A DNA stretch of 64,000 bases from Methanohalophilus profundi (GTDB lineage Archaea; Halobacteriota; Methanosarcinia; Methanosarcinales; Methanosarcinaceae). This document shows positions 21,412 through 60,221 of the stretch, in pieces. Positions within the stretch are counted from its first letter, which is position 1, and the number at the start of each line of letters is the position of its first letter. Under the pieces are notes generated by a model, which was not told the origin of the DNA, did not search any database, and was given only the letters and a program-made list of their open reading frames with translations. The translations under genes were made by a program, and so were the position numbers. Where the stretch lies: the NCBI RefSeq assembly GCF_004137855.1, contig NZ_QBKB01000002.1, positions 1,375,368-1,439,367 of the forward strand. The letters are read 5' to 3'.

Positions 21412-22334
21412 ATGATAATATTTTCCGGTGGAACCGGCACTCCCAAGTTCCTTGATGGCCTGATGTGGACAATGGATGAAGAAGAAATTACAGTTGTTGT
21501 GAATACCGCCGAAGACCTGTGGGTATCAGGTAATCTTGTAACACCGGATGTTGATACAGTACTCTACCTTTTGCCGGCATGATTGACCGGGATAAATGGT
21601 GGGGTATAGCAGGTGATACATTCCGCACTTTCAATGCTATGAAGGACTGTGGTTATGATGAGAAGATGATGCTTGGGGACCGGGATCGGGCCACGCATAT
21701 TATGAGATCTGATATGATTCGTAATGGGGCTACCCTGACTGAAGCAATCTCAAACCTTTGCTCAAGCTTTGGTATTAAGGCCAACATCCTGCCGATGTCA
21801 GATGATCCGGTATCCACAATGATCCGCACACCTCAGGGCTGGATGCATTACCAAGATTTCTGGATTAAGCACCACGGCAAGCCCGATGTACTTGAAGTTA
21901 AGATGGCTGGAATTGATGAAGCTTCTATATCCCCTGCTGTAATGGATAAACTACGGGAAGACAGCAATGTCCTGATTGGTCCCAGTAATCCGATTACAAG
22001 CATAGGTCCCATCATATCCCTTGATGGAATGCCTGAAATCCTTAAAAGTAAAAATGTGGTTGCAATCAGTCCTATTATCGGGAATGAACCTGTTAGTGGT
22101 CCTGCTGGTAAACTTATGAAAGCATGTGGTTAGGGTATTTCTTCAAATGAAGTTGCAAGGTGCTACCATGATTTTCTGGATGTGTTTGTAACAGATATCT
22201 GTGATTCGCAGGGTTGTAATTCTTTTGAAAGTATGGCTTGCAGTGTAGTAAAGACTGATACGATGATGTCTTCTGTAGATGTAAGTATACAATTAGCAGG
22301 TTATGTAAGGAATCTATTTGAGTCCCTGGAATAA
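21412..22334 (+). CDS. cofD: 2-phospho-L-lactate transferase CofD, with a frameshift and an in-frame amber codon
   Basis: CofD joins the phospholactyl group to Fo in making coenzyme F420. It begins [16 protein letters not shown], and [38 protein letters not shown] and [18 protein letters not shown] are all conserved. Two breaks occur. A T is missing in the run at 21569-21572 (repair gives [15 protein letters not shown]). A TAG stands in frame at 22131-22133, after KLMKACG. The frame stays open and similar after it ([15 protein letters not shown]) to TAA at 22334. Total is about 307 residues, a normal length. F420 is essential in methanogens, so the gene should work; the amber may be read as pyrrolysine. 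Confidence 0.87.
22131..22133 (+). other. In-frame amber (TAG) in cofD
   Basis: TAG directly after ...KLMKACG and before [19 protein letters not shown], both conserved CofD sequence. The codon falls at a position that is variable in the family. This organism must decode TAG as pyrrolysine in mttB and mtbB, so readthrough is possible. A base-calling error or a real stop remains possible. Confidence 0.7.
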
Positions 22335-54224: not shown

Positions 54225-55715
54225 ATGAAAGAACACTACTATCCAGGCGCACGCCCATTGGAAGGTGTCGAACTTAATCTCTTCTCCGAAGATGATTTAA
54301 GAAAGATCCATTATGCAACAATGGAATGTTTCATGAACCCTGGTATTCAGGTTTCTGATGCTGAAGCAAGACAGATTTTCAAGGAAGCCGGCTGTGAAGT
54401 CGATGAAAAGAATCAGGTCGTAAAGATTCCTGAATTCCTTGTAAACAGAGCTCTCATGGATTCTCCCTCAAAGTTTACTCTCTGGGGACGGGAAAAGAAA
54501 AACAATACTGTACAGGAGCATAAGGGTAAGGTCAATTGGACTTGCTTCGGTACTGGTGTCAAGATGTGCAACTATGAAGCACCAGGCAAGTACAAGACTG
54601 TCGATTCCGTTGAGCAAGATGTAGCAGACACTGCCAAAGTTTGTGACTGGGCAGACAACATTGACTACTACTCCCTCGCAGTATCTGCCAGAGACTGGGC
54701 AGGTAAGGGTGCACAGGATGTTCACGAAACATTCACACCATTGACCAACACCTCAAAGCACTTCCACCACATTGACCCTGTAGGCGAAAGTGTCGAATAT
54801 TACAGGGACATGGTCCATGCCTACTACGGTGGAGACGAAGAAGAAGCCCGTAAGAAACCAATTTTCTCCATGCTTCTCTGTCCAACCAGCCCACTTGAAC
54901 TCAGCAGCAACGCATGTCAGGTTATCATAAAGGGTTCACGCTTTGGTATCCCTGTAAATGTCCTGAGTATGGCTATGTCCGGCGGTTCATCTCCTGTATT
55001 CCGTGCTGGTACTCTCGTTACACACAATGCAGAGGTCCTTGCAGGTATCGTACTTGCGCAGCTTGTAGTACCAGGTACTTCAGTATGGTATGGTAGTTCA
55101 ACTACAACCTTCGACCTGAAGAGGGGTACTGCTCCAGTAGGTGCACCTGAACTTGGTCTTATCAGTGCGGCAGTCGGTAAACTTGCACAGTTCTATGGCC
55201 TCCCGTCCTTTGTTGCAGGTACCTAGTCAGATGCCAAGGTCCCAGATGGCCAGGCAGGTCACGAGAAGACAATGACTACCCTGCTTCCTGCATTCTCCGG
55301 ATGTAACACCCTTTATGGTGCAGGTATGCTTGAACTCGGTATGACCTTCTCTCTTGAGCAGCTCGTATTCGACAATGACATGATCGAGATGACCAAATCC
55401 GCCATGCGTGGAATTCCTGTTGACGAACTTACCCTTGGTGTAGAATCCATCCAGAAGGTAGGAATTGGTAAGAACTTCCTTGCACACAAACAGACAAGGA
55501 ACTACATCGACAGAGTATCTGATCCAAAACTCATCAACAGGGATATGTTCGGTGACTGGGAAGCAGCAGGTTCTAAAGAACTTGCAACCGTTGCTCACGA
55601 AAAGGTGGTTGACGTCATGAAGAACCATGAAGTTACACCTGTCGATGCTGACCTCATGAAAGATATGAAGGCTGTCATGGACAGAGCAGACGAAGATGTC
55701 AGGAACGCAATGTAA
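54225..55715 (+). CDS. mttB: Trimethylamine methyltransferase MttB with pyrrolysine
   Basis: MttB moves a methyl group from trimethylamine to the corrinoid protein MttC. The 496-residue frame has one in-frame TAG at codon 334 (55224-55226), the same residue as pyrrolysine in M. barkeri MttB. The frame stays open and conserved on both sides: [16 protein letters not shown] before it and [19 protein letters not shown] after. The real stop is TAA at 55713-55715. The N-terminal [20 protein letters not shown] and GFMNPGIQ-like [18 protein letters not shown] are also typical. GTGAAAGGAA precedes the ATG. Confidence 0.97.
55224..55226 (+). other. Amber codon read as pyrrolysine (MttB residue 334)
   Basis: TAG lies in frame between VAGT and SDAKVPD, with open conserved sequence after it. 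Known MttB proteins insert pyrrolysine here, near the active site. Confidence 0.95.
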
Positions 55716-58817: not shown

Positions 58818-60221
58818 ATGGCAAATGAGTATTTTGTAAGGATGGGAGACGGTGAGCGCATCTCCATGACCAAGGAACAGATCATTGCAGACCTTCAGGA
58901 AGGTAGTGCAGATGCAGCAGACCTTGGTGACATTCCTGAACTTTCCGGGGATGAACTTGACAAGCTCGCAGATATCATTATGGATTCCAACCGTATTGTC
59001 AGTGTCGAACCAGGCATGGAAATCCCGGTAACCCACGACATTGGTTCTATCAGGATCGATGGTGACCAGGGTAACAGTGGTGTAGGAATTCCTGCCAGTC
59101 GTCTTGTTGGCTGTATGATGCACGAAAGAGGTTTCGGTGCAGACACAATGGAATTGGGTCATATCGACTACAGTTTCAAACCAGTCAAACCGGTTATTGC
59201 CCAGGAATGCCAGACCATGGAATCTTGCCAGCAGAACATGACTGTTCCTCTTCTCTACGGCGCAATGCCAAATCTGGGTCTCTATTATACACCAGATGGT
59301 CCATTCGAAAACCCTGGTGACCTCATGAAGGCTTTCAAGATCAATGAGGCCCGTGAATCCATCGAGCATGCCGGTGATCATGCAACCCGTGACATCACCT
59401 GGATCATGCAGCACCTGCAGAAAGTAGGCTGTGACGGTGTCAACTTCGATACCATCGGTGCAGCAGGTGACGGAGACGTATATGCATCCCTGTACGCAAT
59501 GAAAGCACTCAGGGAAGAATTCCCTAACATCTACATCGAAGCAGGAATGGCCGGAGAATGTACCCTTGGTATGCACGGTGAACTTGAGTTTGAAGGTAAT
59601 GTTCTTGCAGGTCTGTGGCCACATGAACAGGTGCCACTTGCTGAAGAAGCCGGTGCAAACATGTTCGGTCCGGTCTGCAACACCAACACCAGCAAGTCCT
59701 CCGCATGGAACCTTGCCCGTTCAGTAACCTTCACCAAGGCAGCAGTTGAAGCTTCAAACATCCCCTGTCATGTTGACATGGGTATGGGTGTCGGCGGTAT
59801 TCCAATGTTCGAGACTCCACCAATCGATGCAGTAACTCGTGCCAGCAAGGCAATGGTCGAGATTGCAGGTGTCGATGGTATATAGATCGGAGTTGGCGAC
59901 CCAATCGGTATGCCAATCTCACACATCATGGCTTCCGGTCTTACAGGTATGCGTGCAGCCGGTGACCTTGTTGCTAGGATGCAGTTCTCCGAGGACATGC
60001 GTATAAATGAAGCCAAGGACTATGTTTCCAAGAAACTCGGTGTTGAAGCAATTGACCTGGGTGACGAATATGTCATGAGGGAAATCCGTGAAGAACTTGA
60101 TATTGGTGTACTTACATCCGTTCCAGGATGTGCCAAGGGTATCGCATCCAAGATGAATATTGAGAAACTTCTCGATATTGAAATCAACTGCTGCGATAAA
60201 TTCAGGGAAATCACAGGCTAA
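58818..60221 (+). CDS. mtbB: Dimethylamine methyltransferase MtbB with pyrrolysine
   Basis: Transfers a methyl group from dimethylamine to MtbC. TAG lies in frame at codon 356 (59883-59885), the same position as pyrrolysine in M. barkeri MtbB, and the frame continues to TAA at 60221. The total of 467 residues equals the known MtbB length. It begins [37 protein letters not shown] and the segment after the amber, [18 protein letters not shown], are conserved. mtbC ends 11 bases before it. Confidence 0.97.
59883..59885 (+). other. Amber codon read as pyrrolysine (MtbB residue 356)
   Basis: TAG follows VEIAGVDGI and precedes [10 protein letters not shown], with conserved open frame on both sides. 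Confidence 0.95.

Follow-up and report, generated by a model that had tools for sequence, protein, structure and literature searches.

An in-frame amber codon in cofD of Methanohalophilus profundi and its possible reading as pyrrolysine

In the methylamine methyltransferases MttB, MtbB, and MtmB, an in-frame TAG is read as pyrrolysine (Pyl), the residue is catalytic, and the codon is conserved. The TAG that we describe here in the cofD gene of Methanohalophilus profundi is likewise in frame and may be read likewise, but it is solitary and the residue is presumably neutral. A 2025 report is said to describe an archaeal 'Pyl code' in which TAG always means pyrrolysine. The cofD case resembles it, since TAG seems to stand for an amino acid in ordinary proteins and seldom to end genes, and since the pyl genes are present; it differs in that it is drawn from the sequence of one noisy genome. 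In M. portucalensis MttB, Pyl was measured at the UAG, according to the available part of PMC4928046. The text at hand of PMC11363022 says that Pyl enters only a few methyltransferases, which counts against a general reading, and an excerpt of PMC3639795 provides a precedent for the idea that TAG and Pyl may spread by drift. Thg1 of Methanosarcina acetivorans shares with cofD a lone in-frame amber gained by one species; its UAG is read as Pyl and is dispensable for activity, as far as the accessible portion of the report goes (PMC2933860), and this was shown by experiment, whereas the Pyl of CofD is a prediction. Finally, an in-frame amber proposed to encode Pyl is described in the consulted section of PMC3017947 for M. 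mahii citrate synthase, which, like cofD, is a housekeeping gene, and of the same genus. However, among eight Methanohalophilus genomes (loci G004:C1:499583-500647 and L158-L161) we found citrate synthase with an in-frame TAG in G004, reduced to C-terminal remnants in four, intact in two, and found none in one. Because this gene is in decay within Methanohalophilus, its amber may mark decay, the printed proposal is weakened, and we do not retain it as more than a weak precedent.

Among named loci, the closest to this genome are those of M. euhalobius and Methanohalophilus sp. RSK, consistent with the genus. The genome of M. profundi encodes tRNA-Pyl (anticodon cta) followed in a row by pylS, pylB, pylC, and pylD, all with open frames. 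The domain matches are to the PylS N-terminal domain, PylD_N, Radical_SAM, and ATP-grasp, PylB and PylC being named by position. The window, i.e., the whole stretch of 64,000 nucleotides analysed, carries two genes of the established kind of Pyl protein, both on the forward strand: mttB (54225..55715), with its TAG at 55224-55226 and a match to MTTB of 278.8 bits when read through, and mtbB (58818..60221), with its TAG at 59883-59885 and a match to Dimeth_Pyl of 842.2 bits when read through. Both TAGs are also found in the relative G005. Judged by its genes (tRNA-Pyl, PylS, PylBCD, and TAG-bearing methylamine methyltransferases), this is an organism that decodes pyrrolysine, as the initial annotation of the window had presumed.

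The cofD gene (2-phospho-L-lactate transferase) lies at 21412..22334 on the forward strand and is broken by a frameshift and by an in-frame TAG. Codons 1 to about 53, counted from 21412, are in a different frame from the remainder; the T run at 21569..21572, on the same strand, has four T and relatives carry one more. One of the latter (L003) reads CTC TTT at this site and has the length of the others. The TAG, at 22131..22133 on the forward strand, is in the frame of the ORF 21579-22133, and this frame is open beyond it until the TAA at 22332-22334. Both parts score above the cut-off of 30 for the Pfam CofD profile (PF01933), with 40.9 bits before the shift and 109.7 bits after it, and one TAG falls inside the second match; by these scores, the locus belongs to the CofD family. 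The description of a conserved cofD interrupted by TAG, with nothing else stopping the frame downstream, was thus accurate, and so was the remark that a T is missing. In the alignment with the seven intact cofD of the other Methanohalophilus genomes, none has an internal stop and all have TAC or TAT (Tyr) at the TAG site, our proposed pyrrolysine codon 240. This comparison, which the initial annotation had recommended, leaves no room for a TAG conserved in the genus. Downstream of the TAG, the gene is conserved through to its normal end. A pseudogene would combine disruptions that are not errors with an end to conservation, and here the frame is conserved past the TAG. The changes on the M. 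profundi branch of cofD (5 nonsynonymous, 8 synonymous, and the TAG) are not out of line with those of G005 (8 and 17) or G002 (11 and 9). An intact second cofD, which would have told against the proposal, was also sought: a profile search of the genome assembly (1,830,088 bases in 4 contigs, completeness 89.98%) found none.

Over the Methanosarcinaceae, the residue at the TAG site varies. Among 47 family sequences it is L in 24, Y in 11, I and F in four each, M in three, and K in one, and an invariant tyrosine can be dismissed for the family; a bulky lysine derivative at residue 240 seems plausible on these data. CofD is present in 105 of the 111 family genomes, in a single place in nearly all of them. 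In this survey, a TAG inside the CofD match is listed for M. profundi and for G034, from another genus; G052 has a TAA inside its match, and all three stops occur in a second, weak fragment of G030. In G034 (L162, G034:C79), the TAG replaces a glycine, which is found in the 46 other aligned sequences and is encoded by GGC in the congener G035. Because this glycine is otherwise invariant, the TAG of G034 may be an error or a sign of decay.

The missing T must be seen in the light of the quality of the assembly. We compared 344 genes between M. profundi, G005, and G002, and found interior frameshifts in 55 of them in M. profundi vs 6 in G002, with 54 vs 2 single-base deletions and 10 vs 4 insertions. 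In the window, 15 of 65 genes have a frameshift or a new stop when G005 is the reference, against 5/58 in G002 and 6/63 in G004. The values for M. profundi are 16/60 with G002 as the reference (5/59 and 10/62 for the others) and 24/62 with G004 as the reference (11/62 and 12/59). Genome-wide, 27 of 61 single-base deletions are in runs of at least 4, with enrichments of 7.7x, 18.6x, and 31x for runs of 5, 6, and 7, but 28 are in runs of 1 or 2. In M. profundi, several frames of the synthetase family fall short of the length seen in relatives (826 vs 965 aa, 514 vs 584, and 346 vs 508), and a one-base deletion was observed in the 826-aa frame. Because frameshifts are far commoner here than in G002, a sequencing error very probably explains the T missing from cofD, a possibility already raised in the initial annotation; a biological frameshift was discarded, since frameshifts are scattered over the whole assembly. 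Given the 15/65 disrupted genes, split ORFs anywhere in the window are probably errors too. The assembly also has runs of 1-100 N, at G000:C2:1201358 and at seven other places in 864 kb, from which the window is free. One of them is within the 16S rRNA gene, so that, as a gauge of error, this gene offers no more than the roughly 850 usable aligned columns ahead of the run.

The TAG of cofD is not the only one. Six genes of M. profundi have a TAG in their middle part and encode, judging from their G005 counterparts, a metallo-beta-lactamase-fold protein, a CCG/4Fe-4S protein, a CBS-domain protein, a UDP-glucose/GDP-mannose dehydrogenase, a ClC channel with CBS domains, and CofD. A further gene, YkgJ-like by our reading, has a TAG at codon 21 of 236; it failed the coding filter (third-position share 16/38) and enters none of the P values below. 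Prolyl-tRNA synthetase is essential. Its gene (L192, at about 160598-162085 of G000:C2) has TAG in place of TGG at codon 193 of 496, and in addition a two-base deletion near codon 10, before the probable start. In all eight genomes this synthetase type gives a single top match, and the stop is found in M. profundi and in none of the seven others. Searches for internal stops in other families over the genus gave none among the matches listed for PF00133 and for PF04055, and none in two genomes for PF00006.

From the substitution spectrum of the M. profundi branch itself, one expects new stops to be TAG, TAA, and TGA in proportions 0.375, 0.431, and 0.194. In the three-way comparison, the branch gained five TAG and four TAA over all positions (P 0.22), and five TAG, one TAA, and no TGA between 10% and 90% of gene length (P 0.03). 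The lone mid-gene TAA, at 13% of its gene, precedes the probable start; when it is left out, P is 0.007. In the two-way comparison with G005, which covers 422 coding-like genes, there were eight TAG, four TAA, and one TGA between 3% and 97% (P 0.07), and six, one, and one between 10% and 90% (P 0.036). Unless stated otherwise, P values refer to the undropped rows. By hand, we dropped from the 13 two-way gains TAG 333 (which lies at an insertion), TAG 624 (before the probable start and next to an insertion), TGA 247 (resembling an antisense ORF), TAA 391 (a 109-aa ORF), TAA 441 (codon 103 of 111), and TAA 466 (before the probable start). TAA 765, a CAA to TAA change at codon 31 of 696 in the sensor domain of a sensor histidine kinase (G000:C2:1583577), was kept as real and is the one clear non-TAG stop gain in a recognisable gene. 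As controls, the three-way comparison between 10% and 90% gave no new stop in G005 and one TAA in G002, and the reverse two-way comparison (450 genes, 10-90%) gave one TAG, three TGA, and one TAA in G005, some of them perhaps in antisense ORFs. The excess of TAG is limited to M. profundi and absent from G005 and G002. In G005, a relative assembled in a single contig, an Mrr-type restriction endonuclease, which also matches bPH weakly, carries TAG at codon 258 of 338, where M. profundi has AAG (L084:17814-18827).

If TAG were generally a sense codon, it should seldom end genes. Counting only ORFs with a cross-genus protein match, 2 of 170 G005 genes end in TAG, both of them methylamine methyltransferases. 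In M. profundi there are 11 of 162, made up of the two methyltransferases, three TAGs inside genes (those of the CCG protein, cofD, and the ClC channel), and six products of frameshifts. The control genomes (4/127 in G024 and 2/55 in G074) are too close for these numbers to be calibrated. Each genome has two eRF1-type matches, which from their length we take to be a release factor and a pelota.

Could the TAG of cofD be an assembly substitution error, akin to the missing T, with TAC or TAT as the real codon? We think this unlikely, and yet worth weighing in earnest. The assembly is poor, with its 55 of 344 frameshifted genes and incomplete gene content, the seven relatives have tyrosine, the mid-gene excess of TAG is confined to this genome, and more nonsynonymous changes are found here than in relatives: those unique to one genome, nonsynonymous to synonymous, number 1467/4652 in M. 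profundi, 1170/4596 in G005, and 2105/7800 in G002. For 14 genes, G005 and G002 encode identical products; M. profundi has 24 nonsynonymous changes in them, in a comparison that is biased by the selection of the genes. Yet the errors observed are indels, and the amino-acid changes show no admixture of random ones. The mean BLOSUM62 score of the unique changes is 0.681 in M. profundi, 0.680 in G005, and 0.683 in G002, against -0.423 for random single-base changes, and the share of scores of -2 or less is 0.099, vs 0.086 in G005 and 0.090 in G002, and 0.307 for random ones. By mixture arithmetic, errors would account for about 0-5% of the amino-acid changes unique to M. profundi. Because these changes are as conservative as those of the two relatives, substitution errors are probably few in this assembly. 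Moreover, with random errors, TAA and TGA together should make up about 62-67% of the new stops.

A TAG that is real and terminating, in a cofD that is a pseudogene or being lost, with F420 made from an unseen copy or not needed, appears improbable to us. Gene decay is known in the genus, as illustrated by the C-terminal remnants of citrate synthase in four of eight genomes, and an incomplete genome could miss a second cofD. But the near-ubiquity of CofD in the family (105/111) and the conservation of the gene after the TAG to its normal end speak against loss, and the same termination would be lethal in prolyl-tRNA synthetase. Lower still we place the idea of a device that lets the supply of pyrrolysine or methylamine dictate how much full-length CofD, and hence F420, is made. 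It would follow from inefficient reading of TAG, and a condition-dependent meaning of UAG is reported for a bacterium in the available part of PMC8211752; however, none of the seven relatives has the TAG, and equally solitary TAGs occur in unrelated genes. Because other genes here also bear TAGs absent from relatives, a general drift of TAG as pyrrolysine is to be preferred to a device of CofD.

The explanation that we favour, with moderate confidence that takes account of the missing TAG excess in G005 and G002, is that TAG is generally read as pyrrolysine in this organism and drifted into cofD, and that the missing T is a sequencing error. The initial annotation had suggested such a reading for cofD: the comparative evidence leans that way, but nothing sets CofD apart, other genes being alike. 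Under general reading as pyrrolysine, tRNA-Pyl and PylRS would decode TAG more or less wherever it is present, and TAG would scarcely be a terminator. A third-position change at the tyrosine codon (TAC or TAT to TAG) would then replace Tyr240 by Pyl with no truncation, and drift would have let the TAG persist at a position that tolerates change, as for the TAGs of other genes. With the frameshift taken as an artefact, a single full-length CofD containing one Pyl would be produced from the real gene. We infer that the TAG exists in the living cell, that it gets translated, and that the product is functional.

If the cofD TAG is read, a mere dependence of F420 synthesis on pyrrolysine would follow. 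A stronger version, possible though somewhat doubtful, is that amber is fully reassigned, with Pyl in CofD and prolyl-tRNA synthetase needed for F420 and protein synthesis, and with pyl genes that would be essential even on methanol. If general reading holds, some 'broken' Methanohalophilus genes would be whole, so that annotations and completeness scores may run too low. An amino acid that evolved for one catalytic job would have drifted into housekeeping proteins and become indispensable, which would offer a natural view of the capture of a stop codon.
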